Shown piece after piece: positions 7,198 to 59,810 of a stretch of DNA of 64,000 nt. Source of the DNA: Rhodobacter sp. Its GTDB lineage: Bacteria > Pseudomonadota > Alphaproteobacteria > Rhodobacterales > Rhodobacteraceae. The notes beneath the pieces are model-generated. The model saw only the letters and a program-made list of their open reading frames with translations, made no database searches and had not been told where the DNA came from. A program made the position numbers and the translations under genes. Location: NCBI GenBank assembly GCA_027484145.1, contig JAIXUH010000023.1, forward strand, positions 1 to 64,000, read 5' to 3'. Numbering within the stretch: position 1 is the first letter of the stretch; each line of letters begins with the position of its first letter.

Positions 7198-7512
7198 GTC
7201 TGACACCCGGAAGCTCCAAAGCAGTGCCGGAGTGAATGTCAGTTGCGTGGCCGCATACCTGCGCTCGGACCTTGGCTTCAGCAACCGAAGGCGCACCGGA
7301 GGCAGACTGGGAACCTTCTGCCAAGTGGCGAATTCCCGATTGAGCCGTTCGTTATCAATAACTTGATCCTACACCTCTGCCGTTTGTAACGTGCACAGCT
7401 GCGCCGCGAACCACGGCAGATGTGAACTGGGGAGATGTGGCAGAGGTGTATGCGACCGGGCGACTGGGGCCCCATCGCGATGTCCACGAGCAGCCGCTGG
7501 CATACAAGCGGG
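7198..7512. other. Intergenic stretch, nothing recognised
   Basis: About 315 bases between the YCII gene and the end of the decayed RTX gene. The overlapping short frames have no matching start signals and no family features. Confidence 0.45.
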
Positions 7513-35065: not shown

Positions 35066-35076
35066 TAACTTTACAA
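35065..35076 (-). promoter_or_regulatory. Reverse copy of TTGTAAAGTTAT before the CUT2 binding protein
   Basis: ATAACTTTACAA starts in the isomerase stop codon and lies 35 bases before the binding-protein start at 35112. It is the exact reverse complement of the site at 34047-34058. Confidence 0.5.
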
Positions 35077-35111
35077 ATCGTACAAAACTTGTGTTGAAAA
35101 GGGAGGAACCA

Positions 35112-36161: not shown

Positions 36162-36169
36162 GGCAGGTT

Positions 36170-36200
36170 GCGGCCCGCTTCGCTCCCGTGGGCGGGCCGC
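36170..36200 (+). terminator. Stem-loop with T run after the RbsB-like gene
   Basis: GCGGCCCGC (36170-36178) pairs perfectly with GCGGGCCGC (36192-36200) and is followed by ATTTTCTT. It has the form of an intrinsic terminator acting as an attenuator between binding protein and ATPase. Confidence 0.65.
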
Positions 36201-36221
36201 ATTTTCTTGAGGATGACTGCC

Positions 36222-37727: not shown

Positions 37728-38668
37728 AAACCGTCTTTTCGCGCATCCGCTTTCGTGATGCGGGCACACTTCTGGGGTTGATCCTGATTTCGGCGGTGTT
37801 TGCCGCGCAGTCGGATACGTTTCTGACCACGCCCAATCTGGTGAACATCCTTCAGCAATCAACGATCAACGCCTGTATCGCGCTGGGGATGACGCTGGTC
37901 ATCATCTCGGGCGGGATTGATCTGTCGGTGGGGCCGGTGGCCGCGCTGTCGGCGGTGTTGGGGGCGGCGATGCTGGTGGCCGGGGTTCCGGTGCCGCTGG
38001 CCATTGCGGGGGCCTTGGCAGTGGGGGTCGCCTGCGGCTTTGTCAACGGCGCGCTGATCACTTGGGGCGGGTTGCAGCCTTTCATCGTCACGCTGGGGGG
38101 CCTGTCGCTGTATAGGGCCTTGGCACTGATCTATACCGGGGGCACGCCGATCTTTGGCCTGCCGGATGAGTTTCGTGCCCTGACCAACGGGACGCTGATG
38201 GGGATTCCGAACCCGGTGATCGTGGTGGGGGTTCTGGCCATTGCGGCATGGGTCATCCTGAACAAGACCCCTTTGGGCGAATACTTCATGGCCGTGGGTG
38301 GCAACCCCGAAGCCGCGCGGATTGCCGGGGTTCCGGTGACGCTGACAAAGATGGCCGCCTATATGATCTCGGGCCTGATGGCCGCCGTTGCCGCCATGAT
38401 CCTGATCGGGCGTCTGGGTGCGGCTGAACCCACGATGGGCACATTGTGGGAGTTGGACGCGATTGCCGCCGCGGCGATTGGCGGGGCCAGCCTGATGGGG
38501 GGGCGTGGGTCCATCCCCGGCACGCTGATCGGCTGCATCATCCTTGGCACGCTTCGCAACGGGCTGACCCTTATGAATGTACAGGCGTTCTACCAGTTGC
38601 TTGCCACCGGAATCATCATCATTGTCGCCATGCTGATCGACAAGGTGACCAGCGGCAAAGAGGGATAA
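37724..38668 (+). CDS. CUT2 sugar ABC transporter permease (RbsC-like)
   Basis: 314 residues, with eight or more hydrophobic segments. TLVIISGGIDLSVGPVAALS near residue 60, GFVNGALITWGGLQPFIVTL, and the later AVGGNPEAARIAGVPVTLTK and GGASLMGGRGSIPGTLIG are RbsC-family signatures. The ATG overlaps the RbsA stop. With the two preceding genes it forms a complete ribose-type importer. Confidence 0.9.
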   Translation: MKTVFSRIRFRDAGTLLGLILISAVFAAQSDTFLTTPNLVNILQQSTINACIALGMTLVIISGGIDLSVGPVAALSAVLGAAMLVAGVPVPLAIAGALAVGVACGFVNGALITWGGLQPFIVTLGGLSLYRALALIYTGGTPIFGLPDEFRALTNGTLMGIPNPVIVVGVLAIAAWVILNKTPLGEYFMAVGGNPEAARIAGVPVTLTKMAAYMISGLMAAVAAMILIGRLGAAEPTMGTLWELDAIAAAAIGGASLMGGRGSIPGTLIGCIILGTLRNGLTLMNVQAFYQLLATGIIIIVAMLIDKVTSGKEG

Positions 38669-38671
38669 GGC

Positions 38672-39526
38672 ATGGGTGATCCTCGGGCGGTCGGGGCGCA
38701 GATCCGCATGAAACTGCCGGGGCTGACGCCGTTGGAGGCGAAGGTGGCCGGGGATATTCTGGCGCGCAAGGACATTGATGAATCGATGCCTCTGCGCGAT
38801 GTGGCCACCGGGTCGGGCGTGTCTGAGGCGATGGTGGTCAAGGTCGCCAAGAAGCTGGGATTTGCCGGCTTTCGGGAGTTTCGTCAGGGGCTTGTCGATT
38901 ACTACAGATCCGACACCGCCGCCCTGCATGCCGAGATTGCCACCGACGATACCTCGGGCGAGATTGTGCAAAAGGTGTTTCGCACCGCCATGCAGGCGTT
39001 GGAGGAAACCTTTGCCATTCTGGACCTTGCGGCCTTTGACCGGGCCGCCGATTATCTGCACCGCGCCCGGCAGCGCGATTTCTATGGGCTTGGCGGATCG
39101 GCGCAGATTGCGCGCGATGTCAGCCACAAGTTCCTGCGCATTGGCATTCGGTCGTCGGTTTTTGACGATGCCCATATGATGATGATGTCAGCGGCGCTGT
39201 TGGGCCCGGATGATGTGGCGATAGCCTTTTCGCATTCCGGCAGCACGAGCGCCGTGATTGATGCGGTGGAACTGGCCCGCCGGAACGGCGCGCGCACCAT
39301 TGCGGTGACCAATTACCCCGACAGTCCGGTGGCGCAACTGGTGGACGTGGTGTTGTGTTCCACCGCGCAGAACAACCCGCTGTTGGGCGAAAACGCCACT
39401 GCGCGGATTGCGCAACTGAACCTGCTGGATGCGCTGTTCGTGGCTGTGGCCCAACGCGACCGCAAAGCCGCCGACCTGAATCTGGCCCGCACCATGCGCG
39501 CCGTGCAATCTAAACGCCGAAGCTGA
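38672..39526 (+). CDS. RpiR/MurR-family transcriptional regulator with SIS domain
   Basis: 284 residues. The N-terminal helix-turn-helix (LTPLEAKVAGDILARKDIDE, LRDVATGSGVSEAMVVKVAK, LGFAGFREFRQGL) is followed by a SIS sugar-phosphate-binding domain: RDFYGLGGSAQIARDVSHKF, AIAFSHSGSTSAVIDAVELA and NGARTIAVTNYPDSPVAQLV. RpiR proteins respond to sugar phosphates. The gene sits inside the CUT2 operon, three bases after the permease, and probably controls this operon through the TTGTAAAGTTAT sites at 34047 and 35065. Confidence 0.88.
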   Translation: MGDPRAVGAQIRMKLPGLTPLEAKVAGDILARKDIDESMPLRDVATGSGVSEAMVVKVAKKLGFAGFREFRQGLVDYYRSDTAALHAEIATDDTSGEIVQKVFRTAMQALEETFAILDLAAFDRAADYLHRARQRDFYGLGGSAQIARDVSHKFLRIGIRSSVFDDAHMMMMSAALLGPDDVAIAFSHSGSTSAVIDAVELARRNGARTIAVTNYPDSPVAQLVDVVLCSTAQNNPLLGENATARIAQLNLLDALFVAVAQRDRKAADLNLARTMRAVQSKRRS

Positions 39527-39534
39527 GGCCCCTG

Positions 39535-40401
39535 ATGACCGCCCCCACCGTCCTGACCGTTGGCAGCCTGCATTACGACATCATGGTTCAGGCCGACCAT
39601 TTGCCGCGCAAGGATGAAACCGCCGTCGGGTCGCGCTGGTTTCCCAAGTTTGGCGGAAAGGGGGGCAATCAGGCGGTGGCGGTGGCCCGTGCGGGTGCCC
39701 CAAGTCGTATGTTTGGCGCGGTGGGCGACGATGAGTTTGGACGCTTCATGCGGGCTGCCCTTCAGGCCGGGGGGGTGGAGGATACCTTTGTGGCGACCCT
39801 GCCTGATGTCGGATCAGGGATGAGCGTGGCCATACTGGACGCGCAGGGCGATTATGCCGCCACCATCGTTTCGGGGGCCAACCTGAAGTCTGACATGGGC
39901 GCGCTGTCGGATGCGGCGCTATGGCAGGATGTTGGACTGCTGATCTTGCAGAACGAGGTGCCCGAGGCGTTGAACATCGCTGCCGCCACACAGGCGCGTG
40001 CGCGGGGCATCCGCACCTTGCTGAACGCGGCTCCGGCCCGTGCATTGCCGCCTGAACTGGTGTCAAAGGTCGATATTCTGGTGGTCAACGCGGTTGAGGC
40101 CGAAATGATGGGGGCCGATCCGGTCTGTTGTCTGCACAGTGCGGCGGATGCCGCCAAGGGGCTTGCCGCGCGGTTCGAGGCGGTGATCGTGACCGCAGGA
40201 GCCAAGGGTCTGGCCGCCGTCGGCCCCGATGATGACGCCTTTACCCTGCCCGCCGAAAAGGTGGAGGTGGTGTCAAGCCATGGCGCGGGGGATGCCTTTA
40301 TTGGCGCGCTCTGTGCGGCTTTGGTGCAGGGCAAGGCTTTGCCCGTTGCCGCCGAGGCCGCCTCACATGCCGCGGCCCTGCATGTCAGCACACGGGGCTA
40401 G
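39535..40401 (+). CDS. PfkB-family carbohydrate kinase, second copy
   Basis: 288 residues. VLTVGSLHYDIMVQADHLPR, the GG motif FPKFGGKGGNQAVAVARAG, LLNAAPARALP, VVNAVEAEMMG and the C-terminal SSHGAGDAFIGALCAALVQG with the catalytic Asp. The usual Thr-Thr/Thr-Gly before GAGD is Ser-His here, a mild departure. It closes the CUT2 operon, eight bases after the RpiR gene, and likely phosphorylates the imported sugar, giving the sugar phosphate that RpiR senses. Confidence 0.85.
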   Translation: MTAPTVLTVGSLHYDIMVQADHLPRKDETAVGSRWFPKFGGKGGNQAVAVARAGAPSRMFGAVGDDEFGRFMRAALQAGGVEDTFVATLPDVGSGMSVAILDAQGDYAATIVSGANLKSDMGALSDAALWQDVGLLILQNEVPEALNIAAATQARARGIRTLLNAAPARALPPELVSKVDILVVNAVEAEMMGADPVCCLHSAADAAKGLAARFEAVIVTAGAKGLAAVGPDDDAFTLPAEKVEVVSSHGAGDAFIGALCAALVQGKALPVAAEAASHAAALHVSTRG

Positions 40402-47752: not shown

Positions 47753-48361
47753 TCAGCGGTATTTCTCGATGAAGGCGTCAATGTCCAGCGCCCGGATATC
47801 GGGAAGTGCGGCCCGGAGCGCCGCATGGTCCCAATCCCACCATGCGATCTGTTGCAACGCCGCGGCCTGCGGGGCCGCGAACCGCCATTTCAGGTGTCGC
47901 GCGGGCACACCGCCCACGATTTCATAGGGGGCAACATCCTTTGATACCACCGCGCCTGCGCCGATCACCGCACCCGTGCCGACGGTCACACCGGGCAGGA
48001 TCGTGACACCATGGCCGATCCAGACATCATGGCCGATGGTCACCCAATGATCGCGGCGCCACTGGAAAAAGGCGTCGTCATCTTCGCCCAAGCCGAACTG
48101 CGCGGCGCGATAGGTGAAGTGGTGCTGGCTGGCCCGCCATGTGGCGTGGTTGCCGGGGTTGATCCGCGCGCCTTCGGCGATGGAGCAGAACTTGCCGATG
48201 GTGGACCAGACGACGTTGCCGCCTTTGACGATGTAGGAATAGTCGCCAAACGTGACCTCGCGCATCGTCACATGCGCCATCACCTCGGTCCATTTGCCCA
48301 GCGTGCAGTCGACCAGCGTGGCGGTGTCGTGGACGTTGGGCGCTTCGGTCAGCATTTTCAT
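47753..48361 (-). CDS. Hexapeptide-repeat acetyltransferase of the phosphonate operon
   Basis: 202 residues. Left-handed beta-helix repeats run from about 15 to 160, with the trimeric acetyltransferase His region [20 protein letters not shown], then [20 protein letters not shown] and [20 protein letters not shown] as in the chloramphenicol-acetyltransferase-like group. Proteins of this form are recurrent in phn operons and annotated as phosphonate-metabolism acyltransferases. It is the last gene of the operon, 13 bases after the transglutaminase-like gene. It may acetylate an aminophosphonate or a phosphonate-derived amine. Confidence 0.83.
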
Positions 48362-48374
48362 TTCTGGTTCCGGG

Positions 48375-49193
48375 TCAGGCGGTTGCGGGCATCAGACGGC
48401 GGATCTGGATTCTGTCGAAACGGACCGGTTCGCCGCCCTTCATCACCATGGGTTCGACCAGCAGTTTCAGGTCAACAAAGCCGATCTCGGTCTGGCAAAG
48501 CGCGGAAGAATGGCCCACCGGCACGCGGAACCCGCCTTTTGGGTTCAGCGCAGGCCCGGCATCGCGCCGCCCGATCTGCAGGAAATGCGAGATGTCCCAT
48601 TCCTGTGTCTGCCCATTGGTGCGGGTGACGGCCCAGCAGTGCCCGCTGGTGCATTCGCCGACCTCGGGGAAGAAGTAACCCACCACATAGCCCGCCTCGA
48701 TTCCGGCCGCGCGCAGCGATGCGAGAAAGTAGGTGTGGATATCGACGCAGGAGCCTTCGGTCAGGCCGCAGGCCAGATGGGGCACATGGTCGAAACCATC
48801 GGTGAGTTTTTGGGTGGGATGGCCATAGTCAAACCGTTCGGCCACATGGCGGGCAATGCGGATGGCGCGGGTCAGATCGTCGCCGGTTCCGGCGATCTGC
48901 CGGGCCTCATCCACCAGTGCGGGGGCCGCGCGGGTATAGCGGGACGGGGCTGGATGAAAGATCGCCTCGGGATAGGTGCCGGGCTGGCCGGAAAAGGTGT
49001 AGCGGAACGTCACCTTGGCAGCGTCGGGCGTCACCCACAGAAGTTCTTGCCCCGAAGTCGCCTCGGCCAACCGCCGCACTTGCCCCCCGGTCACGGTGCA
49101 ACCGCTGCAGACGGATGCCGGAGAGGAGAGGCCCGCAGGGGCGAGGATCGGGCCTTCGGTTCCCGCCACGGCGATTTCGACGGCGTAAGGCAT
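48375..49193 (-). CDS. Transglutaminase-like protein in the phn operon
   Basis: 272 residues from the ATG at 49193, which overlaps the PhnE stop (TAATG). The transglutaminase-like catalytic triad is visible: Cys149 in [20 protein letters not shown], His185 in TSGHCWAVT, and Asp200 in QEWDISHF. The N-terminal 100 residues are a beta-rich domain ([12 protein letters not shown]). Members of this fold act as cysteine proteases or amide-bond-forming or -breaking enzymes. It has no signal peptide, so it acts in the cytoplasm. Its place between phnE and an acetyltransferase suggests that it handles an amide or peptide-linked phosphonate. Function unknown. Confidence 0.8.
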
Positions 49194-50071
49194 TATCTGG
49201 TTCCCTCCCATGATCCGATGAAGCGTGCCCGGATCAAGCCGGACAGCCAGTCGATCAGATAGACCATCGCGATGATCAGGAAGATGATCGACCACGCCTG
49301 ATCCCACATATAGGCCTGAATCCGGTCTGACAGCAGAAAGCCGATCCCGCCCGCGCCCACGATGCCAAGGATGGTGCCCGAGCGGACGTTGGATTCGAAG
49401 TTGTAAAGCGTGATCGAAAGCAGCACCGGAAAGACCTGCGGCAGGATCGCAAAGCGGATCGCCTGCGTGATCGACCCGCCAGAGGCGACCACACCTTCGA
49501 CCGGTTTGTTCGACGCGTTTTCAATCGCCTCGGAATAAAGCTTGGCCAGAACGCCGATTTCGGACACCGCGATGGCAAGCACACCGGCCAGCGGCCCCAA
49601 CCCGAAGGCACGGATAAAGATCAGCGCAAGGATCAGCGTTTCGAACGACCGGATCACATCGAAACCGCGCCGGAACCCAAGACGCAGCCAGTTCATCCGG
49701 TTGATGGTCTTTGCCCCCACAAAAGCCAGCGGAAAGGCGACCACGGCGCCCAGCAGACTTCCCATAAAGGCCATGGACAGGGTTTCGCCCAGACCCTCCA
49801 GAATGTCGGCAAATTCAGACCATTGCGTCCAGATGTACGGCGGGAACATGAAGCCCAAGACCTGCCCGAACCGCGCCAACCCCGAAAAAATGCGATAAGG
49901 TGAGAAGTCAAAGTCATAAAGGCACCAGCCGAACAGCGCCAGAAAGGCAATCCACAGAGCCGCCGTGCGCAAACGCTGTGGCATGGGCGCGCGAAAGGCC
50001 AAAGGCATGCGGGCCTTGGCGGCGGCAATCTCGGCCGGGGTGACCTTTTGAGTCATAGGGGGAACAGACAT
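49193..50071 (-). CDS. phnE: Phosphonate ABC transporter permease, second copy
   Basis: 292 residues. About six hydrophobic segments; RSFETLILALIFIRAFGLGP, LAGVLAIAVSEIGVLAKLYS, EAIENASNKPVEGVVASGGS and FESNVRSGTILGIVGAGGIG are PhnE family blocks. The start overlaps the preceding permease stop by one base. Two different PhnE subunits in one operon point to a heterodimeric channel. Confidence 0.9.
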   Translation of the reverse strand: MSVPPMTQKVTPAEIAAAKARMPLAFRAPMPQRLRTAALWIAFLALFGWCLYDFDFSPYRIFSGLARFGQVLGFMFPPYIWTQWSEFADILEGLGETLSMAFMGSLLGAVVAFPLAFVGAKTINRMNWLRLGFRRGFDVIRSFETLILALIFIRAFGLGPLAGVLAIAVSEIGVLAKLYSEAIENASNKPVEGVVASGGSITQAIRFAILPQVFPVLLSITLYNFESNVRSGTILGIVGAGGIGFLLSDRIQAYMWDQAWSIIFLIIAMVYLIDWLSGLIRARFIGSWEGTR

Positions 50072-50985
50072 CAGCGCACTCCCAATCCGATGAAGCGGTG
50101 CCGCAGCTTTTCTGACCCGTAGTCGATGAGCATGACGGTCACGAGAATGATCACGAACAGCGCCGAAAGGTCGGTGTATTCCTGCAGGCTGACGGCGGTG
50201 CGGAATTCCTGCCCCAAGCCACCTGCGCCGACGTAGCCGATGATAGATGAGGAGCGGACGTTGATCTCGAACCGCAGGAGGGTATAGCTGAGGATATTGG
50301 GCAGCACCTGTGGCACGGCGCCATAGCGGATCATGTCAAACCACGTCCCGCCCGAAGCCTTGATGCCATCCAGCGGGCGCATGTCGATGTTTTCATTGGC
50401 TTCCGAGTAGAGCTTGCCCAGCGCCCCCACGCAGTGCAGCGATATGGCCATTACCCCGGCCATCGGGCCGATGCCAAAGCTGAACACGAAGATCAGCGCC
50501 CAGACCAGATCGGGCACGGTGCGGGCAATCTCCAGAAACCGGCGGGTGAACCACAAAAGCCATGGGTTGGGTGACAGGTTCCGCGCCGCAGGAAAGCTTA
50601 ACAGAAAGCCGCCCACCACGCCGAATGTCGTGGCCATGAAGGCGATCAGGATGGTTTCGGCCAAAAGGACCGCCCATGTGCGCCACGCCCAGAACCAGTT
50701 CGCCAGATCAGCGCCCAGCGTGGACCAGTGCAGCGAAGGGATGGTCTTTTCCAGATACTCGCCCAGACGCGGCAAACCAGCCGGAATGATCCAGCGTTCG
50801 GCCCGCGACCCATCGGCCAGCGTCACTTGGTTGACCTTGAAGAAATCGCTCATATGGGCAGAGGCAAAGAACAGGATCAGAAACACGATTGTGCTGGCAG
50901 CCCAGATCAGCCGCGACCGGGCACGCGCCGCAGCATAAGCCGATTCAAAGGCCTGAACGGCAGGCGAAAGGGAAACCGTGGTCAT
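50071..50985 (-). CDS. phnE: Phosphonate ABC transporter permease, first copy
   Basis: 304 residues from the ATG at 50985 (an ATG at 51000 is also in frame). Family blocks are ARTVPDLVWALIFVFSFGIG, PMAGVMAISLHCVGALGKLY, SEANENIDMRPLDGIKASGG and FEINVRSSSIIGYVGAGGLG. A periplasmic loop of about 60 residues follows the first helix. It pairs with the permease encoded next, from which it is separated by a one-base overlap. A strong stem-loop lies between it and phnD. Confidence 0.9.
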   Translation of the reverse strand: MTTVSLSPAVQAFESAYAAARARSRLIWAASTIVFLILFFASAHMSDFFKVNQVTLADGSRAERWIIPAGLPRLGEYLEKTIPSLHWSTLGADLANWFWAWRTWAVLLAETILIAFMATTFGVVGGFLLSFPAARNLSPNPWLLWFTRRFLEIARTVPDLVWALIFVFSFGIGPMAGVMAISLHCVGALGKLYSEANENIDMRPLDGIKASGGTWFDMIRYGAVPQVLPNILSYTLLRFEINVRSSSIIGYVGAGGLGQEFRTAVSLQEYTDLSALFVIILVTVMLIDYGSEKLRHRFIGLGVR

Positions 50986-51007
50986 GCACTGCCCATCCAT
51001 AAAGGGA

Positions 51008-51044: not shown

Positions 51045-51947
51045 TCAGCTTTTGCGGTTTGCCTTGATCCAGGCGCGCATGTCGATGATCCACTGGTAAC
51101 GCTCGTGGTTCACCTCGATATAGCCCTTGTCGGTCGAGGTATCGCCGCCGGTCATTTCCTTGTAAACCTCGGGCGCAGCGGTCGGCAGCGCCAGAAGGGC
51201 GGCCTTGACTTCATCGATCATCGGCTGCGGCAGGTTGTTGCGCGTGGTGACCGGGCCGTTGGTGATTTCGGGCGACTGCCAGATGACGCAGATTTCGCCT
51301 TCCTTGATCATGCCCTTGGACGCCATCAACTGATAAACGCCCGAGGTTTCGTTGTCCTGATAGGTGGCGGCGGCATCAAACTGCTTGTTGACCACGCCCT
51401 GAACGCCCGCTTCATGGCTGCCCGAGAAGGGAGTGCCTGCGAAGAAGGTTTCCATTTCATAGCCCTGCTGCACAAGGTTATACAGCGGCACGGCATAGCC
51501 CGAGGTGCTGTCGGGGTCGGCGAAAGCCAGAACCTTGCCCTTCAGATCGTCGATGGTCTTGTAGCCGCTGTCGCAGCGCACCGTGACGATGCTGTAATAG
51601 CCCGTGGCGCCGTTTATGCTTTGCGAAGCGAGCAGTGGCTGGACGTTGCCTTCGCTGGCGGTATAGGCGGCGGCATAGGCGGACGAGCCGAGGAAAGCGA
51701 ATTCGATCTGGTCGGCAGCCAAAGCCTGAATCACGCCGTCAAAGTTGCCAGCGGTGAAGATCTCCAGATCCACGCCGAGGGTCTTTTCCATATAGGCTTC
51801 GAAGCCCTTGTAGCGGGCCAGACGGTCCTGCTCGTTCTCGCTCGACAGGATGCCGAACTTGACGGTCTTGTAATCGGCTTTCCAGTCCTGCGCCATTGCG
51901 GGCACGGCGGCCAGAAGGGCAAGGGCAGTCACAGCAAACAGACGCAT
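51045..51947 (-). CDS. phnD: Phosphonate ABC transporter substrate-binding protein
   Basis: 300 residues from the ATG at 51947, with AAAGGA upstream. Signal peptide MRLFAVTALALLAAVPAMAQ. The mature protein shows the PhnD fold: VKFGILSSENEQDRLARYKG, VDLEIFTAGNFDGVIQALAA, DQIEFAFLGSSAYAAAYTA, and DLKGKVLAFADPDSTSGYAV with the family's phosphonate-binding Ser/Thr stretch. It binds organophosphonates in the periplasm and feeds the two PhnE permeases. Confidence 0.92.
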   Translation of the reverse strand: MRLFAVTALALLAAVPAMAQDWKADYKTVKFGILSSENEQDRLARYKGFEAYMEKTLGVDLEIFTAGNFDGVIQALAADQIEFAFLGSSAYAAAYTASEGNVQPLLASQSINGATGYYSIVTVRCDSGYKTIDDLKGKVLAFADPDSTSGYAVPLYNLVQQGYEMETFFAGTPFSGSHEAGVQGVVNKQFDAAATYQDNETSGVYQLMASKGMIKEGEICVIWQSPEITNGPVTTRNNLPQPMIDEVKAALLALPTAAPEVYKEMTGGDTSTDKGYIEVNHERYQWIIDMRAWIKANRKS

Positions 51948-51975
51948 GATGTATCCTTTGAGGTGGGTTGAGAAA

Positions 51976-52782
51976 TCAGGCCGGCACAAGGACGCGCGCG
52001 GCGGTCGAGGTCACGGCTTCGTTGAACTCGGCCAGCCCTTCGCTGCCGTAGATGTCACGCACGACATCATCGGTCAGTTGCCGGGGGGTGCCGTCAAAGA
52101 ACACCCGGCCGTCGCGCATGGCGATGATGCGTTGGCAATAGGCGCGGGCCGTATCCAGCGTGTGCAGGTTCACCAGCACGGTGATGCCGTCATCGCGGTT
52201 GATGCTGCGCAGCGCTTCCATCACGCGGGTGGCATTGCCGGGGTCAAGGCTGGCGATGGGTTCATCGGCCAGCATGATCCGGGGGTTCTGCACCAGCGCC
52301 CGTGCAATCGCCACGCGCTGCTGCTGGCCACCTGACAGGGTGCCTGCGCGCTGCAGCGCTTGGGGGGCAAGCTCCAGCCGGTCGAGCGCGCGGATGGCGA
52401 TCGTCCGCTCGGCATCCGAAAACCGCATGGCCATCGAGGAGAAAAAGCCGTGATCCGCCAACCGCCCGACCAGCACATTTGTCAGAACATCCAGCCGGTC
52501 CACCAGATTGAACTGCTGAAAGATCATCGCGCAGTCGCGTCGCCACTGCCGCAATTCACGCCCGCGCAGTTTGGTGACATCGGTGCCGCCAAAGCGGATC
52601 GAGCCCTCGGTCGGGTCGATCAGCCGGTTGATCAGCCGCAGCAGCGTGGATTTTCCGGCACCCGAGCGGCCGATCACACCCACGAACTGGCCGGGGGCAA
52701 AGTCGAGTGTCACGGAATCCACCGCGCGGGTGGAGCCAAACTGGCGGCCTAGGCCGGAGAGGGAGAGGATGTGCTTTTCCAT
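51976..52782 (-). CDS. phnC: Phosphonate ABC transporter ATP-binding protein
   Basis: 268 residues from the ATG at 52782. Walker [11 protein letters not shown]-loop [20 protein letters not shown], signature [19 protein letters not shown], Walker [21 protein letters not shown] and switch His [11 protein letters not shown]. The NLHTLDTA form is typical of PhnC. It is the first gene of the transporter block. The 96-base gap before it holds a palindrome shared with the phnF promoter and a Pho-box-like sequence, so the block may have its own promoter. Confidence 0.92.
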
Positions 52783-52819
52783 GACGCACACCCTGCCGAC
52801 GCATCACAAAACTCAGGCA

Positions 52820-52878: not shown

Positions 52879-54048
52879 TCAGGCGACGCGCTTCAACGCC
52901 ACCGACCCGTCGGAATAGATCTTGGCGCCGTGGCGCAGCGTGGCGCGGACATGACCCACCCCGGTATCATCGGCGATCACCAGATCGGCCAGCATTCCTG
53001 TCTGGATTGCCCCGCGATCCATCAGACCCAAGGCGCGGGCCGGGTTCAGCGTGGCAAGTTGTGTCGCCCCCGCCAACCCCTTTGGGTCGGCCTTGGCCAG
53101 TTCCAGCACGGCGGGCAAAATGGCCGAAGGGTGATAGTCCGCCGCCAGAATATCCAGCAGTCCCAATCCATGCGCCTCACGCGCGGAAAGGTTGCCGGAA
53201 TAGGATTTGCCGCGCAGCGCGTTGGGCGCGCCCATGGCGGTGGCAAGCCCGCGCGCGCGGGCCTCGGTCGCGGCCTCGACCGTCACGGGAAATTCGCTGA
53301 TGCTGGCACCCAAGGAATGCATCAGCGCCACCTTTGCAGCCGTGTCGTCGTCATGGCTGGCAAGGGCCACGCCATGCGCGCGACAGGTGTCTGAAATCGC
53401 CTGCAGGGTCGCGGCCATGTCGCCTGCCGTGCTGCGCTTTTCCGCGATCCGGCGGGCGACTTCGTCTTCGGCCTCGGTCAGGGACACACCTTTTTCGCGC
53501 GCCACGCGTTCGACATGCGCCTCCATATCGCGGTACTGACCCTGACCGGGGGTGTGGTCGGTCAAGGACACCAAATCCACAGCGCCTTCGGCAATCAGTC
53601 CTTCGACCACGCGCAGGGCATCGGGAAAGGTGACCTCGAAGCGAGCGTGAACCTTGTGATCGACCTTCAGCATCTCGCCCATGGCCTTCAGGCTGCGGAT
53701 GATGGCTGAGGTGTTGTCGAAGTGGCGGATATGGCCATAGGCCGATCCGGGGTGAAAACTGACGGCGGCATAGGCCGTTGTCACGCCCCCCGCGGCCAGA
53801 CGGCGGTCAAGATCGCGCAGGCCCAATTCCATCGGCATGCGGACGTTGGGGCGCGGTTCCACCTCGCGTTCGACCATGTCGCCATGCATGTCGACAAAGC
53901 CCGGCAGCAACAGCAGACCGTCGCCGTTCAATGCGGCACCAGGCACCGGGGCATCCGCAATCTCAGCAATCTTGCCGCCTTCAATCCGCACGGCACCACG
54001 CTGCAGCACCGCATCAGGGGTCACCACGCGAAAATCAGACAGCCACAT
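52879..54048 (-). CDS. phnM: PhnM, ribosyl-phosphonate triphosphate diphosphatase
   Basis: 389 residues. An amidohydrolase-superfamily enzyme that removes pyrophosphate from alpha-D-ribose 1-alkylphosphonate 5-triphosphate in the C-P lyase route. Visible features: LLLPGFVDMHGDMVEREVEP with metal-binding residues, DLVSLTDHTPGQGQYRD, the HGVALASHDDDTA block, ISEFPVTVEAATEARARGL, MGAPNALRGKSYSGN and LDILAADYHPSAILPAV. Sequence around MHGDMVE differs from the Escherichia coli form (HSDNLEK). It overlaps phnL by 14 bases. Confidence 0.9.
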   Translation of the reverse strand: MWLSDFRVVTPDAVLQRGAVRIEGGKIAEIADAPVPGAALNGDGLLLLPGFVDMHGDMVEREVEPRPNVRMPMELGLRDLDRRLAAGGVTTAYAAVSFHPGSAYGHIRHFDNTSAIIRSLKAMGEMLKVDHKVHARFEVTFPDALRVVEGLIAEGAVDLVSLTDHTPGQGQYRDMEAHVERVAREKGVSLTEAEDEVARRIAEKRSTAGDMAATLQAISDTCRAHGVALASHDDDTAAKVALMHSLGASISEFPVTVEAATEARARGLATAMGAPNALRGKSYSGNLSAREAHGLGLLDILAADYHPSAILPAVLELAKADPKGLAGATQLATLNPARALGLMDRGAIQTGMLADLVIADDTGVGHVRATLRHGAKIYSDGSVALKRVA

Positions 54049-54739
54049 CTTCGGTCACCTCTTTTGCAGTCAGTTCAATGTCACGGTCGATCAGGTGGGC
54101 CACATCACCGGGGTGGTGAAACACCCCGATCATTGCCACGCCCTGCGCCTTCAGATCAGCCAGCCTTCGCACCAAGGCTGCCCGCGCCCCCGCATCCAGC
54201 GAGGCGGTGGGTTCGTCCAGCAAAAGCAGGCGCTGCGGCAAAATCAGCGCGCGGGCAAGGTTCACCTTTTGCTGCTCACCCCCCGAAAAGGTGGTGGGAT
54301 AGGCGCGCCACAGATCCCGCTTCACACCAAATTCGGCCAGCCAGAGGCGGGCTTGCGCGGTGGCCTCGGCTGCCGGGATACCAGCCAAACGCAACGGCTC
54401 GGCGACAATATCCTCGGCGGCCACGCGGGGGCGCGCGATCAGGAATTGCGTCACGAATCCGATCTCGCGCCGCCGCAGCAGGGCGATATCCACATCGGCG
54501 GCGCGGGCAAGGTCGATCCGGCCTTCGGTGGTGTGATACCAGATATGGCCCTCTTGCGGCAGATAGCTGCGGTACAGCGTGCGCAAAAGGGTGGATTTGC
54601 CCACGCCATTGGGGCCGCGCAGCAGCAGGAACTCGCCCTGTGCGAGGGTAAAGTTGATGCTGTCAAAGGCGTGCAGGCTTTGGCCCAGATGGTGCATCTG
54701 AAACTGCTTGCCCAGGTTTTCAACCTGCAACACGGTCAT
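54035..54739 (-). CDS. phnL: PhnL, ABC-type subunit of the C-P lyase system
   Basis: 234 residues from the ATG at 54739. Walker A GPNGVGKST, then LYRSYLPQEGHIWY and EIGFVTQFLIARPRVAAEDI, as in PhnL (GWVSQFLRVIPR). Signature TTFSGGEQQKVNLARALI, Walker B RLLLLDEPTASLDAGARAAL and switch HHPGDVA. PhnL has no membrane partner and works with the cytoplasmic PhnGHIJ core. The gene follows phnK by seven bases. Confidence 0.9.
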   Translation of the reverse strand: MTVLQVENLGKQFQMHHLGQSLHAFDSINFTLAQGEFLLLRGPNGVGKSTLLRTLYRSYLPQEGHIWYHTTEGRIDLARAADVDIALLRRREIGFVTQFLIARPRVAAEDIVAEPLRLAGIPAAEATAQARLWLAEFGVKRDLWRAYPTTFSGGEQQKVNLARALILPQRLLLLDEPTASLDAGARAALVRRLADLKAQGVAMIGVFHHPGDVAHLIDRDIELTAKEVTEDVAV

Positions 54740-54746
54740 CGCGGCC

Positions 54747-55541
54747 TCACAATTTCGCATGGACAAGGGATTGGGTGTATTCGTGCTGCGGGTCTTGGAA
54801 CACCTGATCGGCCAGCCCCTGTTCCACCACGCGGCCATGGCGCATCACCATCACGCGGTCAGCCATGGTGCGAAGGACGCCCAGATCGTGCGACACGATC
54901 ACCATGGTGATCGCCCGGTCGCGTTGCAGGCGTTTCAGCGTATCCAGCACAAGGGCCTGCACCGAAACATCCAACCCCGTGGTGGGTTCGTCCAGCAGCA
55001 GAAGGGCAGGTTCCAGCGCGATCGCCTTGGCCAGTTGCACGCGCTGTTGCATGCCACCGGACAGTTCGATCGGGCGGGCGTCCATGCGGTCCAGCGGGAA
55101 TTCGGAGGCCTCCAGCGCCACACGGCCACGGGCGCGCAGGGCGGCAAAGCTGCGTTCGCCCGCGATCAGCAGGCGTTCGGCGACATTGCCGCTGGAGGTA
55201 TGCTTCATCAGCAACCCCTGATGCGGGTTCTGGTACACAATGCCGATGCGGGTGGCGCACAGCATCCGGCGGGCAAAACGGTCAAGGTCAAAGAGGTTGC
55301 CGGGCAGATCGGGCAGGGCGAGGCGGTAATCGCCGCTGTCAGGCGTATCCTCCAGGTTCATCATGCGCAGCAGGGTCGATTTGCCCGACCCGCTTTCGCC
55401 GACGATCCCCAGCACTTCGCCGGGGTAAACCATGGCCGAAACGTCATCCAAGGCCGTCACGCGGCCATAGCGGCGGCAAAGGCCTGTCATGGTCAGCAGG
55501 GGTGGGGTGGTCATCAGTTGTGGGGGCAGCATGGCGTTCAT
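54747..55541 (-). CDS. phnK: PhnK, ABC-type subunit of the C-P lyase system
   Basis: 264 residues, starting in ATGA overlap with the phnJ stop. Walker A GESGSGKST, then MLCATRIGIVYQNPHQGLLM, which is close to the PhnK Q-loop (GWGFVHQHPRDGLR). Signature IELSGGMQQRVQLAKAIALE and Walker B ALLLLDEPTTGLDVSVQALV with VSHDLGVLRT. PhnK binds the PhnJ subunit of the core complex. The N-terminus is about ten residues longer than usual if the first ATG is used. Confidence 0.9.
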   Translation of the reverse strand: MNAMLPPQLMTTPPLLTMTGLCRRYGRVTALDDVSAMVYPGEVLGIVGESGSGKSTLLRMMNLEDTPDSGDYRLALPDLPGNLFDLDRFARRMLCATRIGIVYQNPHQGLLMKHTSSGNVAERLLIAGERSFAALRARGRVALEASEFPLDRMDARPIELSGGMQQRVQLAKAIALEPALLLLDEPTTGLDVSVQALVLDTLKRLQRDRAITMVIVSHDLGVLRTMADRVMVMRHGRVVEQGLADQVFQDPQHEYTQSLVHAKL

Positions 55542-56464
55542 GGCATCACCCCGTTTTCATACCAGGTGGGGCCGATCTGGTCTGCCGCGCCTTCGACCCC
55601 GCCTTCTGCCTGCGACAGCCGGATTGCCTTGATGCCCAGATGGCTGTCAGACAGTTCAAAGACCGAACCCACATCCTGCGGGATTTCATTCATGAAATAG
55701 CCTGTGACGCCCGAGCGGTGGCAGGTGAGGCCGCCGTGATCCTCGACCTGATAGGGTACATCGGAGAACACCAAAGGTTCCACGCGGGTAAAGGGGGGCA
55801 CGGCGTAAAGGCGCTTCTCGCGGCCCGCCGACAGAAAGGTGAGGTGCTGCGCCATGTGAAGTTTGGGCACGTCCCAGCGGGGGATGGGGGAGGGGGTCAT
55901 CACATGCCGACCGTTCACCAGCGCCGGATAGGCCGCCCCCTCCATGATCCGCCCGGCGCGGACCATTTGTTCATAAAGGATCAACCACAGCCGCCCGTAA
56001 TCGGCATCGGCGTGCATCTGGCGGGCGATGGACATGTTGGGTTCCACCGGGCGCAGGGGTTCGGGGTTGGGCACTTGCAGGACCAGAACCTGATCGGCGC
56101 GCAGGCGTTCCTCGGGGATGCGGTGGCGGGATTGGATGATGGTGGCGGCGAGGGTGTCCCAGGTTTCGGCCGCACCGGAAACCTTGGACAGGAAGGACCG
56201 GATGGAGGCGGCGTTGACGCTGTCATCGGCGCCTTGGTCGATGACCTTGACCACGGATTGCGGTTTCAACAGGGTCAGCGTGACTTGCAAGCCCCCGGTC
56301 CCCCAACCGCGCGCCATGGGCACTTCGCGGCTGGCATAGGGCATCTGGCAGCCCGGCACGGCGATGGCCTTGAGCATCTTGCGGCGCAGTTCGCGTTTGG
56401 CCGACGGGTCGAGGAAGCCATAGGACATGGGCTGCCAGGCTTTGGTCAAGGCTGCGATGGTCAT
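55538..56464 (-). CDS. phnJ: PhnJ homologue lacking three of four core cysteines
   Basis: 308 residues from the ATG at 56464 (ATGA overlap with phnI). The family core is clear: AVPGCQMPYASREVP with the Gly (residue 38) that forms the glycyl radical in the known enzyme, MARGWGTGGLQVTLTLL, VKVIDQGADDSVNAASIRSF, TIIQSRHRIPEERL, PSPIPRWDVPK and FLSAGREKRLYAVPPFTRVE. In Escherichia coli PhnJ, Cys241, 244 and 266 bind the iron-sulfur cluster and Cys272 acts in catalysis. Here the matching stretch LTCHRSGVTGYFMNE has Cys248 only; the others align with Ser251, Leu271 and Gly277. The frame is intact and the C-terminus is about 27 residues longer. Radical-SAM activity by the known route is therefore doubtful. 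Confidence 0.88.
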   Translation of the reverse strand: MTIAALTKAWQPMSYGFLDPSAKRELRRKMLKAIAVPGCQMPYASREVPMARGWGTGGLQVTLTLLKPQSVVKVIDQGADDSVNAASIRSFLSKVSGAAETWDTLAATIIQSRHRIPEERLRADQVLVLQVPNPEPLRPVEPNMSIARQMHADADYGRLWLILYEQMVRAGRIMEGAAYPALVNGRHVMTPSPIPRWDVPKLHMAQHLTFLSAGREKRLYAVPPFTRVEPLVFSDVPYQVEDHGGLTCHRSGVTGYFMNEIPQDVGSVFELSDSHLGIKAIRLSQAEGGVEGAADQIGPTWYENGVMP

Positions 56465-57504
56465 GCGGGCACCTCTGCCGTTTTGGCCCCGCGCAGGGCG
56501 TCGAGTGCGGATTGGAAGGTGACGTAATGCGGCAGTTTGAAGTGGATGCAAAAGCCCGACGCCTCGACCGGTTCGGTGTGATAGAGGAAGAACTCCTCCT
56601 CCACCGGGGATCCCTTAGGGGCGGCGGCGGCGTTCAGATCGAGCGTTGCACCCGAGATGACCTTGACTTCGTTCCAGCCCAAGGTGGCGCAGAAGCCGAG
56701 GTTCAACTGGCCAGATTTGCCTTTGGAGGTGACTTCGGCCTGTGAAACCTTGACGCGGCCTGCCGAAAACACCGTGCCGCTTGGGTGGGTGACGCGGACC
56801 TCGGCCTCGGCCAGCCGGAGTTCGTTGACGGTGGGGTGGGCGTTGCCATAGCCGCGCATGGCGGCATAGCCGAGAGCCAACATGCCGCCCGTATCGGCGC
56901 GGGCGAGGCTTTGCAGGGTATGGGCGCGTTTGGCGGGGAAAAGCAGCGGTTCGCGCGTCAGGTCGGGGATGGCGTCGGGGGCGACATCCTCGCGCAGCGG
57001 GTCGGCCACCAGCCCTTGGGCCTTTTGCCAGGCGGCGAGGGAGGGTTGGTGGGCGGGGGCTGGGGTAGCGGCGGGTTCAACCGGCGTGGGGGTATAGGGG
57101 CGGCCTTGCAGGACATCGGTGGCCAGAAGGCGGTGGGCGTAATCCAGCGTTGGCCCAAGGATTTGCCCGCCGGGAATATCCTTGAACGCCGCCGAAATGC
57201 GGCGGTGGGTGATCAGGTCCTCTTGCAGCACGGGCGCAGCGATGGCGAGGCGCGGTTGGGTGGTGCGCCAGGCGCGCAACAGCAGGACCGCCTCATACAA
57301 ATCACCGCCCGTTTGAGCCAAGGCAAGTGCGGCAAGGTCGGGTTCATAAAGCGACGCCTCACCCATGACCCGGTCAATCAAATTGGGCAGGGATTGGCGC
57401 AGGGTGGTCACGCGGGTTGCATCGATCTGGCCCAATTCAGCGCGGTAGAGCCGTTCGGATTGGTCGATGGCGCGGGCCCCGCCACGGGTGGCAACATAGG
57501 CCAT
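56461..57504 (-). CDS. phnI: PhnI, C-P lyase core subunit
   Basis: 347 residues from the ATG at 57504, which overlaps the phnH stop by one base. MAYVATRGGARAIDQSERLY, LPNLIDRVMGEASLYEPDLA, AVLLLRAWRTTQPRLAIA, RRISAAFKDIPGGQILGPTL, DYAHRLL, and the end EEEFFLYHTEPVEASGFCIH then KLPHYVTFQSAL follow the PhnI family. PhnI with PhnG, H and L attaches ribose triphosphate to the phosphonate. The region between residues 240 and 300 differs from the Escherichia coli protein. Confidence 0.9.
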   Translation of the reverse strand: MAYVATRGGARAIDQSERLYRAELGQIDATRVTTLRQSLPNLIDRVMGEASLYEPDLAALALAQTGGDLYEAVLLLRAWRTTQPRLAIAAPVLQEDLITHRRISAAFKDIPGGQILGPTLDYAHRLLATDVLQGRPYTPTPVEPAATPAPAHQPSLAAWQKAQGLVADPLREDVAPDAIPDLTREPLLFPAKRAHTLQSLARADTGGMLALGYAAMRGYGNAHPTVNELRLAEAEVRVTHPSGTVFSAGRVKVSQAEVTSKGKSGQLNLGFCATLGWNEVKVISGATLDLNAAAAPKGSPVEEEFFLYHTEPVEASGFCIHFKLPHYVTFQSALDALRGAKTAEVPA

Positions 57505-58031
57505 CACAGCACCTCGATTTGGGTAGAGCGGGGCAGGCCCATCACCTGGCCCCCGCAGATCAGGAATAGGTCGAACCCGGCGGGATAGCGGTTCTGGGCC
57601 CGCTGAGGCCAGATGTCGGCCACGCCGCCCAAGATGACATCGGTGTAGGTTTCGATACCCGGCCCCGTCAGGCGCAGGCGTTGGCCGGTGCCGTGGGTGG
57701 CGGTGATGATCACGGTGGCCCCGGCATCGGGATAGAGGGCCGAACCCACGGCGACCTGCGCCAGAATGCCGGGCGTGGGATGGCTGGCAAAGCAATGATC
57801 CGCCTCGGCCACGGGAACAAGTGCTGCGCCAAAGTTGGCGATTGTGGCGGCCAGAGTCGGGTCATCGGTGTAAACGCGGCATTCGCGATCGACCAAAGCC
57901 TCGGCAATGCCAGCCATACCGGGGGTGGGCAGGGGGTGCAGGGTACCGGGGCGAGACAGCGCCGACATCAGCGCCTCGAAGGTCGCGTTGGTACGGGCCT
58001 CGAAGGCATCGGGGATGGGGACGGCGGTCAT
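57504..58031 (-). CDS. phnH: PhnH, C-P lyase core subunit
   Basis: 175 residues from the ATG at 58031 (TGATG overlap with phnG). FEALMSALSRPGTLHPLPTP matches the PhnH N-terminus (FR.LLDAMARPG), followed by LVDRECRVYTDDPTLAATIA, HPTPGILAQVAVGSALYPDA and the C-terminal RYPAGFDLFLICGGQVMGLP with RSTQIEVL. Slightly shorter than the 194-residue Escherichia coli form. It dimerises in the PhnGHIJ core. Confidence 0.9.
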   Translation of the reverse strand: MTAVPIPDAFEARTNATFEALMSALSRPGTLHPLPTPGMAGIAEALVDRECRVYTDDPTLAATIANFGAALVPVAEADHCFASHPTPGILAQVAVGSALYPDAGATVIITATHGTGQRLRLTGPGIETYTDVILGGVADIWPQRAQNRYPAGFDLFLICGGQVMGLPRSTQIEVL

Positions 58032-58462
58032 CAGAACGTCTCCATATCCACGCGGGTCGCTTCGACCTCGCACAGGCGGGCGGTGTCGCGGGCAGTGATT
58101 TCGGCGGACTCAGCGGCAAGAAAGGCTTGGATTTCCGGACTTTGGCCAAGGCTGGCCACGGCATCGACCACGGCCATGGCCATGGCCTGTTCCAAATTGC
58201 GGCCCACGACCATGCCATACCCCTCGCATCCCTTGGCACGCAGATGCGCTTCGGCCACCAGAACCTCACCCAAATGAAAATCCGTGCCCTTGACTGTGTC
58301 GCGCATGGGCAGCATCACAAGGCCGGTGCGGCTGTGCAGCACCTCGACGTCTTGCAACTGCGGCAGCAGGGTTTCGGCCAAGGCGGTCAGGCGGGCCACA
58401 TCGGCGCGGGCCAGCACGTCCAGCAGGGTGGCATGGTCAAACTCGGTCGGGCGGTCAAACAT
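58031..58462 (-). CDS. phnG: PhnG, C-P lyase core subunit
   Basis: 143 residues from the ATG at 58462, inside an eight-base overlap with phnF. LLDVLARADVARLTALAETL, VLHSRTGLVMLPMRDTVKGT, FHLGEVLVAEAHLRAKGCEG and YGMVVGRNLEQAMAMAVVDA correspond to PhnG (RP..G...R....G..FN.GE), including the phosphonate substrate-contacting segment. It is first of the core genes. Confidence 0.9.
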   Translation of the reverse strand: MFDRPTEFDHATLLDVLARADVARLTALAETLLPQLQDVEVLHSRTGLVMLPMRDTVKGTDFHLGEVLVAEAHLRAKGCEGYGMVVGRNLEQAMAMAVVDAVASLGQSPEIQAFLAAESAEITARDTARLCEVEATRVDMETF

Positions 58463-59183
58463 CGCGGCCTTCCTCCAGACTATCAATGGTGAATTGCACG
58501 CGGGCCCCGGCCCAAACGGCTTCGGAATGGCCGATAGGCGCGCCTGCGGCATCGACATCTGTCTTTTGGACCACCATTACGGGTTGGTCCGGATGCTGCC
58601 GCAGCAAAGCCGCCTCGTGCGGATTGGGGCGGCGGGTCAGAATGACAGTGCGCTTTCGGGCATAGGTTTCGATGCCGTGATCGCGGTAAATGTCGGTGAT
58701 GGAATGGCCAGTCTGCCGCCGTGCGGCCAGATCGGGAAAACGCTCGGCACTATGCCACGAGAGGCTGATGTTGATGGGCGCGCCATCGGCCAGACCACGC
58801 CGCAACAGGCGATGCACCATGGCCCCCTCGGCCAGCCCCAAAGCCACCGCGATCTCTGGCGGGGCGACCATGAGGTCTGCGGAAATCTGCTCTCCCGCAG
58901 GCGCGACCCCCTGTTCCATCAGGTTCTGGCGAAAACGCGTGCGTCGCCCGATGTGGTAGTTGATCAGGGGGGCAGCCTCGACAAAGGTGCCGCGCCCCTG
59001 TTCCACGCGCAACTTGCCCTCAACCGCCAAAGCGGCAATCGCCCGGCGCACCGAGTGGCGCCCGGCCTGAAACGACTGACACAGCACGCTTTCCGTCGGC
59101 AACTGGGCCCCCGGCGCCAGATGCCCTTGCGCAATCTGCGACGAAAGCGTGTCGCGGATGTTTTGCCAGTGCTCTTGCGCCAT
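58455..59183 (-). CDS. phnF: PhnF, GntR/HutC-family regulator of the phn operon
   Basis: 242 residues from the ATG at 59183. Winged helix at about 1-75 (HWQNIRDTLSSQIAQGHLAP, PTESVLCQSFQAGRHSVRRA, LRVEQGRGTFVEAAPLI), then a UTRA ligand domain (MVHRLLRRGLADGAPINISL, ETYARKRTVILTRR, HPDQPVMVVQKTDVDAAGAP). PhnF proteins repress phn genes and respond to phosphorus status or ligand. A palindromic site 17 bases upstream and a Pho-box-like sequence about 50 bases upstream are in its promoter, so it is probably autoregulated and under phosphate control. Confidence 0.9.
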   Translation of the reverse strand: MAQEHWQNIRDTLSSQIAQGHLAPGAQLPTESVLCQSFQAGRHSVRRAIAALAVEGKLRVEQGRGTFVEAAPLINYHIGRRTRFRQNLMEQGVAPAGEQISADLMVAPPEIAVALGLAEGAMVHRLLRRGLADGAPINISLSWHSAERFPDLAARRQTGHSITDIYRDHGIETYARKRTVILTRRPNPHEAALLRQHPDQPVMVVQKTDVDAAGAPIGHSEAVWAGARVQFTIDSLEEGRDV

Positions 59184-59198
59184 GCTGCGCTCCCTGCA

Positions 59199-59212
59199 GT
59201 CATTCGGATGAC
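59199..59212. promoter_or_regulatory. GTCATTCGGATGAC near-palindrome before phnF
   Basis: Imperfect 14-bp palindrome 16 bases upstream of the phnF ATG. Its core TCATTCGGATGA differs at one base from the perfect palindrome before phnC (52820-52831). Candidate PhnF operator. Confidence 0.6.
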
Positions 59213-59231
59213 TTCGCTCTATCGCCACGCC

Positions 59232-59249
59232 ATGACGCAGGTGTGACAG
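59232..59249 (-). promoter_or_regulatory. Pho-box-like sequence upstream of phnF
   Basis: On the minus strand CTGTCAC-ACCT-GCGTCAT has the 7-4-7 layout of a PhoB site (consensus CTGTCAT repeats), with six and five of seven matches. It lies 48-66 bases before the phnF start, a normal distance for activation. Confidence 0.5.
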
Positions 59250-59810
59250 CGCAGGCGTGCGAGAGCACAACGAAGCGCCAAAAATGGCGGGTCGCGCGCG
59301 CTCAATCCACGTTTCGCGGTTGGCAGGAAGGCTTCGCGCCCGTGAAGACGGAACGGGGTGGGCAAGCGGCGACATCTGCCAATGCTAGTCAGCATGGCCG
59401 CCCAAGGCCCGAAGTCGGCCACGAAGGAAGCGCCTGCCGCGCTTGCCAGTCTGCGAAGAAGGGCACCAGAAAGTTTACTGAGGTCGGGTCATTGCTTTTC
59501 TGCGAATGCAGGGCGTCCCCGACAAAGCCCTCTGTCAAGACCACCAACCGAATGACCTTTGTCACGTCAGGCGGCGTGATCCGTCCGTGTTTTGCCAACA
59601 CGGCGATGCTGACGCGCGAACGGCCCTGGCATAGGCGACTCGTGGCAGTATGGACCAATCGCCACGCCGCAAGGGCCGGAAAGCCAACGCCTATCCATTG
59701 GCCTTTCAGGCGATTCTTCCCCGATCCGGGGCATCGATTCCTGATGTTGCGGTTTCCTGTCCCATGGCGTTTGCAGCGATCAGGGAATGGTCACGACCAG
59801 GCTGTCGCCG
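59250..59810. other. Intergenic stretch between phn operon and metal module
   Basis: About 560 bases upstream of the phnF promoter and downstream of the MFS gene. Open frames on both strands have no family features. No insertion sequence or terminator was recognised. Confidence 0.45.

Follow-up and report, generated by a model that had tools for sequence, protein, structure and literature searches.

A candidate second lineage of C-P-lyase-type complexes with a PhnJ that lacks the cluster and catalytic cysteines

In this study, we identified a phn operon in which PhnJ has lost three of the four cysteines that serve the iron-sulfur cluster and catalysis in Escherichia coli PhnJ, the match of Cys241 alone being kept. 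Phylogenetic trees of PhnJ and its partners suggest that the C-P-lyase-type complex encoded in the window (the whole stretch of 64,000 nucleotides of Rhodobacter sp. DNA that was analysed) belongs to an old lineage separate from the canonical one; we call this second lineage type II. By its gene set and fold, type II falls within the C-P lyase complex family; by the cysteines compared here, its PhnJ stands outside the radical-SAM PhnJ proteins. Its PhnJ is predicted to be unable to carry a [4Fe-4S] cluster on the known ligands or a thiyl radical on Cys272. In our preferred reading, to which we give about an even chance, the complex would ribosylate its substrate and free phosphorus at a metal site without the radical-SAM cluster of PhnJ. 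Among the papers listed in searches of the open full-text literature, outside which most subscription papers lie, none describes a PhnJ without these cysteines.

All genes of the operon are on the minus strand. The phnJ gene (55538..56464) is an open frame of 308 amino acids plus a stop codon and overlaps both phnI and phnK by 4 bases. The phnI frame (56461..57600) is a 379-codon stretch whose true start lies further in, and phnH (57504..58073), phnG (58031..58558), and phnM (ribosyl-phosphonate triphosphate diphosphatase, 52879..54048) score above the cut-offs of TIGR03292, TIGR03293, and both NF011988 and TIGR02318, respectively. The best families of the two ABC ATPases are PhnK (54747..55541, 219.7 bits) and PhnL (54035..54838, 239.1 bits), both below the NCBIfam cut-offs (302.85 and 256.3) as scored for the window copies. 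The putative GntR/UTRA regulator gene phnF (58455..59375) probably also starts further in. The transporter genes phnC (ATPase, 51976..52791), phnE1 (permease, 50071..51000), and phnE2 (permease, 49193..50071) were assigned from gene order, translation, and relatives in other loci, and the phosphonate-binding protein gene phnD (51045..51989) reaches 261.9 bits in TIGR03431 (cut-off 261.1), with E. coli PhnD (3p7i) as its best solved relative. Homologs of PhnG, H, I, J, K, L, and M stand together in one operon, as in the C-P lyase core complex family. The PhnD match, together with phnX and a TIGR03364 oxidoreductase gene behind the Cys-less operon in two other loci (L057 and L058), suggests that the operon serves phosphonate use. 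A Pho box search of the window returned 4 matches at 3 mismatches, compared with 4.03 expected by chance. Elsewhere in the window (34070-40401) lies an ordinary sugar transporter cluster with AP_endonuc_2, a periplasmic sugar-binding protein, a double ABC ATPase, a permease, and a PfkB kinase.

The gene content of 30 Cys-less and 52 canonical loci was scored by our own ORF calling and similarity to the window proteins. PhnI is present in all 30 Cys-less loci, PhnG, PhnH, and PhnL in 29 each, and PhnM in 26; the four stretches without phnM are L055, L056, L062 (which ends at the contig end), and L070. Relatives of phnC and phnD accompany 26 and 25 of these loci. In L055 and L056, where the stretch runs G-H-I-J-K-L, upstream genes resembling oligopeptide or sugar ABC transporters replace phnCDE. 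Near three other Cys-less operons (L036:12559-16892, L037:14479-18944, and L117:24804-28906) a second phnM stands with its own phnD-C-E, together with a methyltransferase-like gene in L036 and L037 and a second phnF in L117; a second GHIJKL set is absent from the stretch seen. Apparent PhnI-PhnJ fusions in L043 and L045 were rejected as artefacts, the upstream part of the long frame being a wrong-frame reading. Two genes below phnE2 had been proposed in an earlier note on this DNA as possible companions of the cysteine loss. The hexapeptide acetyltransferase (47753..48361, TIGR03308) occurs beside both operon types (15/30 Cys-less and 24/52 canonical loci). The transglutaminase-like gene (PF01841, 48375..49307, no NCBIfam match), which lies between phnE2 and the acetyltransferase gene, was found in 2 of the 30 Cys-less loci, its one relative besides the window among the 30 and 52 loci being in L063; it was therefore rejected as a general partner and is probably incidental.

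Residues 14-273 of the window PhnJ align with residues 8-268 of E. coli PhnJ (4xb6_D) with an E-value of 1.9e-78 (phmmer), placing C248 on Cys241, S251 on Cys244, and L271 on Cys266. This alignment does not reach Cys272; in the multiple alignment, G277 occupies the Cys272 column. Gly38, the match of the radical residue Gly32, is kept, as are R113, H114, and Q130, which correspond to E. coli Arg107, His108, and Gln124. The earlier description of an intact frame, with Gly38 and Cys248 kept and Ser251, Leu271, and Gly277 in place of Cys244, Cys266, and Cys272, is thus exact in our alignments. The protein reaches 376 bits in Pfam (cut-off 25) and shares 47-48% identity with E. coli PhnJ in the structural match. 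An AlphaFold2 model (mean pLDDT 77) matches 7z19_D over 276 columns (E 3.4e-30, TM 0.81 by target); with an rmsd of 6.3, it speaks for the kept fold alone.

PhnJ frames were taken from 115 loci. The Cys-less set comprises 46 hits and the window row, i.e., 47 rows from 45 distinct genes (the window gene fills three rows, since L002 and L006 repeat it). The canonical set comprises 68 rows from 67 distinct genes; because 590 candidates had been narrowed to the best 80, it is biased towards relatives of the window. None of the 47 Cys-less rows has a cysteine in the 244, 266, or 272 column, and all four cysteines are present in 68/68 canonical rows of this best-80 selection. The 244 column holds Ser or Thr in the Cys-less rows, the 266 column mostly aliphatic residues, and the 272 column mostly Gly or Ala. 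The same loss is seen in six further plasmid copies, two of them from Thermus. Gly38 is invariant (47/47), and its stretch is conserved in both types. C248 is kept in 45 rows and replaced by Asp in L060 and L061, and C39, adjacent to Gly38, is present in 37, its place being taken by Tyr or His in ten rows and by Tyr in Thermus; no cysteine is universal in the 47 aligned rows. E270, K279, and the tail residues G298 and T300 are found in every Cys-less row and are conserved in this type alone, K279 also in both Thermus copies, and H243 is present in 41 of 47. The extended C-terminus (G-x-T-[WY]-[YF]), which the earlier note had considered possibly related to the loss, proved to be shared by most members of the lineage; in Thermus it is shorter. 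dN/dS values of the window PhnJ against four relatives are 0.065, 0.097, 0.087, and 0.178, among the lower values within the operon. The gene is under purifying selection and is not the product of error or decay; a sequencing error is excluded because independent assemblies have the loss in common.

Phylogenetic trees were built on residues 12-234 or 14-234, which leaves out the cysteine columns of the C-terminal part. In a quick tree of 112 PhnJ rows (residues 12-234), the 45 Cys-less rows lie behind one branch (SH-aLRT 99). A more careful tree of 48 rows (residues 14-234), which includes the six plasmid copies, also places them behind one branch (bootstrap 96, SH-aLRT 94). Both trees thus give one clade sharing the loss, which had been the question put to such an alignment. 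Quick trees of PhnG, H, I, K, L, and M, Thermus included, give the same single split with supports of 99, 93, 99, 99, 100, and 95, albeit with long-branch warnings, and it is thus the whole complex, not PhnJ alone, that forms a second lineage. According to record titles, its members belong to Rhodobacterales and Hyphomicrobiales (Devosia, Rhizobiaceae, Phyllobacteriaceae, and Aurantimonadaceae), with four Anaerolineae MAGs (Chloroflexota) and plasmids of Thermus thermophilus; two further MAGs, one with the label Bacteroidetes and the other with just 'bacterium', group with the Anaerolineae. The Thermus plasmids branch first when canonical rows serve as the outgroup of the unrooted trees, and loss from a cysteine-bearing ancestor is likely. 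On the Thermus plasmid pVV8, reportedly the subject of a paper by Ohtani in 2012, the order is phnC-D-E-G-H-I-J-K-L-M with the Cys-less phnJ, followed by an acetyltransferase-like gene and a TIGR00282 metallophosphoesterase gene. Existing annotation calls this copy an ordinary C-P lyase PhnJ. A PhnJ relative with 53% identity to the Thermus protein is encoded at 6964-7767 of OQ572413.1, a record named Pseudomonas phage Y12.

The metal and ligand site is kept in type II. In excerpts of the structural study of the E. coli complex (PMC9947105), 5-phosphoribosyl 1,2-cyclic phosphate (PRcP) and a Zn ion are located between PhnI His328 and His333 and PhnJ Arg107, His108, and Gln124, and PhnI His219 joins the Zn site in the open state. 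The matches of the three PhnI histidines (H255, H353, and H358 in the window, for His219, His328, and His333) are present in 31/31 Cys-less and 52/52 canonical operons, and those of the three PhnJ residues in 33/33 Cys-less and 15/15 canonical rows. Four PhnM histidine columns are also kept, except that a single row deviates in one of them and another row is gapped. The surroundings of the site differ between the types. At Ec326, two residues before the match of His328, PhnI has a cysteine in 30/31 Cys-less operons compared with 3/52 canonical ones (L064, L068, and L074), Thermus having Ala; strand alternation suggests that this cysteine may face the metal. The adjacent Ser327, mostly polar in canonical PhnI, is Ile or Leu in 31/31, and the canonical-invariant Tyr273, Gly274, and Met287 are replaced in 29, 31, and 31 of 31. 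PhnI near the metal site thus appears to have changed in step with PhnJ. The columns that separate the types number 46 in PhnI, 24 in PhnK, 19 in PhnL, 12 in PhnG, 11 in PhnM, and 3 in PhnH, and much of this set may be plain divergence.

A partner protein supplying the cluster, as had been suggested earlier, found no support nearby. A scan of the six subunits encoded beside phnJ (PhnG, H, I, K, L, and M) detected no near-universal new cysteine in the Cys-less operons outside PhnI. The best columns are in PhnH (20/30 vs. 1/51 canonical), PhnK (18/31 vs. 0/51), and PhnM (18/27 vs. 17/45). The CX3CX2C motif was found in none of the 30 Cys-less loci and in two of the 52 canonical loci among selected ORFs of at least 150 amino acids.

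The genes downstream of phnM bear on the later steps of the pathway. As outlined in excerpts of PMC10574752, PhnI ribosylates the phosphonate, PhnM trims it, and radical cleavage by PhnJ yields PRcP, which passes to PhnP and PhnN; the same excerpts propose a 2H phosphodiesterase as a substitute for PhnP in such operons. In L054 and in Mesorhizobium sp. AR07, DUF1045 and PhnN genes directly follow phnM of the Cys-less operon, and we read DUF1045 as that 2H phosphodiesterase. The L054 protein reaches 245.6 bits in TIGR03223, just below the cut-off of 248.95. The AR07 order is phnG-H-I-J-K-L-M-DUF1045-phnN with the Cys-less phnJ, between two IS6 transposase genes. These in-operon genes suggest that a cyclic-phosphate route after cleavage is still used. 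Both are rarer beside Cys-less loci than beside canonical ones (DUF1045 3/30 vs. 23/52, PhnN 3/30 vs. 29/52). The genomes G074, G300, G310, and G315, which show the Cys-less PhnJ only, each encode PhnN above the cut-off and DUF1045, in G315 on contigs other than that of phnJ. In searches of 18 genomes for each protein, the MAGs G316-G321 had neither PhnN nor PhnP above the cut-off, and DUF1045 was present among them in G321 alone and weakly (31.3 bits, cut-off 24.3), leaving the product route in these six unproven. PhnP exceeded the cut-off in 0/18 genomes, G323 coming close (265.3 vs. 272.25). Phosphodiesterase or Ugp/Opp-type transporter genes lie beside L047, L050, L054, L058, and L062 and on the Thermus and AR07 plasmids; the counts in 30 and 52 loci were too small to claim enrichment, and such a link was set aside. 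In AR07 (L119:816-18810), the segment enclosed by the IS6 transposase genes resembles a compound transposon and holds, besides the Cys-less operon, an alkaline-phosphatase-family gene and an oligopeptide-type ABC transporter.

We propose a pathway for the type II complex based on these kept and lost parts. The residues of the middle step are lost, and the earlier parts, in several operons also the later ones, are kept; most simply read, the conserved metal site carries out the middle step in another manner. PhnG, H, I, and L would couple the ribose of ATP to the phosphorus substrate, and PhnM would trim the triphosphate. The next step would fall to PhnI and PhnJ at the conserved ribose-phosphate site with its two-His metal, where the ribose 2'-OH may attack phosphorus and the organic group leave by a polar, non-radical route. 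The resulting 1,2-cyclic phosphate would be opened by DUF1045 or another phosphodiesterase, and PhnN, where it exists, would turn the opened product into PRPP. A phosphonate with a charge-bearing leaving group, or a P-O, P-N, or P-S compound, would be a likelier substrate than methylphosphonate. The narrower proposal, that the lineage from Thermus to the roseobacters is a SAM-independent C-P lyase working at the PhnI/PhnJ metal site with neither iron-sulfur cluster nor thiyl radical, is tentative, and we put it at about one chance in three. A different reaction is likely, given the same loss across the whole lineage, whose members range from marine bacteria to a model organism of hot springs. 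The earlier idea of another chemistry is supported to this extent: across a conserved lineage, the catalytic cysteine and the ligands of the cluster are gone, and the metal and ribose-phosphate site is retained. Several points count against our main reading. To our knowledge, non-radical C-P cleavage of unactivated alkyl phosphonates has no precedent. Gly38 is kept in all rows without an obvious need in a non-radical enzyme. Furthermore, phnM is missing from 4/30 loci, DUF1045 and PhnN are rarer beside Cys-less operons, and the new PhnI cysteine is absent in Thermus and present in three canonical PhnI proteins.

The complex might instead ribosylate phosphonates or other phosphorus compounds without breaking any bond to phosphorus, for example to detoxify, store, or export them. 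The near-complete set of PhnI, PhnG, PhnH, PhnL, and PhnM in loci whose cleaving residues are gone is consistent with such a function, as is the lack of PhnN and PhnP above the cut-off in G316-G321. However, the frequent phnC and phnD relatives speak for import, and the post-cleavage genes DUF1045 and PhnN directly behind phnM in L054 and AR07 argue against it, and we regard this explanation as unlikely.

Cleavage by a glycyl radical could also persist if the radical on Gly38 were made by a separate radical-SAM activase or by a canonical PhnJ in the same cell. The invariance of Gly38 and the cysteine beside it in most rows favor this explanation, and the distribution of PhnJ copies bears on it. 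Among 295 genomes of the window's family, 16 carry the Cys-less gene, and 15 of these 16 have two PhnJ matches. Compared with the 131 of 279 other genomes that have a match, taken collectively as 'canonical only' with some fragments among them, this is more than expected (Fisher p 0.0002). Fourteen of the second matches share 46-49% identity and are taken as canonical on that basis, their cysteines having been read in G000 only; the fifteenth (G022) is counted without an identity row. In the window's own genome, a canonical PhnJ is encoded as a second copy on a different contig (C23:871026-871838), a copy for which the earlier note had proposed a search. In G080, G230, G250, G297, and G323, genes of both types stand on the same contig with 8-21 kb between them, and in Haematobacter massiliensis OT1 a second match lies on the same plasmid record, outside the 98-113.5 kb stretch. 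Help in trans from canonical genes is thus possible in most of the 15 family carriers. However, C39 is replaced in ten rows and in Thermus, which leaves no universal thiyl donor in PhnJ, and the CX3CX2C motif is lacking in the selected ORFs of the 30 loci. Ten carriers also show no second PhnJ match, namely G074 from the family search and nine of 29 genomes elsewhere, including Haematobacter massiliensis CCUG 47968 and the six MAGs G316-G321; a completeness value (99%) is available for G074 alone, and most of the single-match genomes of the 29 are MAGs. An activation in trans is therefore distinctly unlikely in our estimate. A search with the C-terminal part detected the Cys-less gene in 5/398 genomes of the phylum and in 13/292 of the order, including the window's own and a short match in G749; among the genomes listed in the order search, two more belong to the same genus as the window, and both lack the gene.

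The frequent pairing of two PhnJ copies, some of them close together, could also mean that the Cys-less PhnJ is a helper that works only in mixed complexes with canonical PhnJ. Its own co-diverged PhnG, H, I, K, L, and M, the ten carriers just described, and the Thermus HB8 plasmid record, in which tblastn found this copy only, make such a role very improbable. We think it hardly likely at all that other residues of the clade still bind the cluster in the same place, since C248 is Asp in two members, H243 reaches 41/47, and the 244, 266, and 272 columns hold Ser/Thr, mostly aliphatic residues, and mostly Gly/Ala, even though C248 persists in 45/47 rows and the modelled fold follows the E. coli chain.

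Our preferred reading, phosphorus release at the metal site without a PhnJ cluster, bears on questions beyond this operon. According to excerpts of two studies (PMC9381506 and PMC10574752), phnJ serves as the marker gene when phosphonate breakdown and aerobic methane release are surveyed. Such counts may include the type II lineage, whose reaction may yield no methane. In the E. coli complex, according to excerpts of PMC9947105, the cluster site lies ~30 Å from the radical Gly32, and in the open state 31 Å separate Gly32 and the Zn ion. These distances are an open puzzle on which type II bears, as a natural complex with the metal site kept and the cluster lost separates the two and makes each role testable, possibly with a heat-stable version from Thermus thermophilus.

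Type II differs in distinct ways from the systems it resembles. Pyruvate formate-lyase is a glycyl-radical enzyme with a separate activase, and the conserved Gly38 could likewise bear a radical made in trans, whereas the type II PhnJ has no universal cysteine and its loci, as far as read, have no activase-like motif. Cys-plus/Cys-minus ribosomal protein pairs include a paralog that keeps its fold without the metal-binding cysteine set; in type II, a catalytic cysteine is lost as well and the whole operon has diverged. Phosphonoacetaldehyde hydrolase (PhnX) cleaves the C-P bond of activated phosphonates by a polar, radical-free route, but it is an unrelated HAD-family enzyme and involves no ribosylation. 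The E. coli C-P lyase (PDB 4xb6 and 7z15-7z19) shares with type II the gene set and order G-H-I-J-K-L-M, PhnI His219/328/333, PhnJ Arg107/His108/Gln124, and the fold, whereas type II lacks three of the four cluster and catalytic cysteines, has a C-terminal tail in most members, and is altered around the PhnI metal site.
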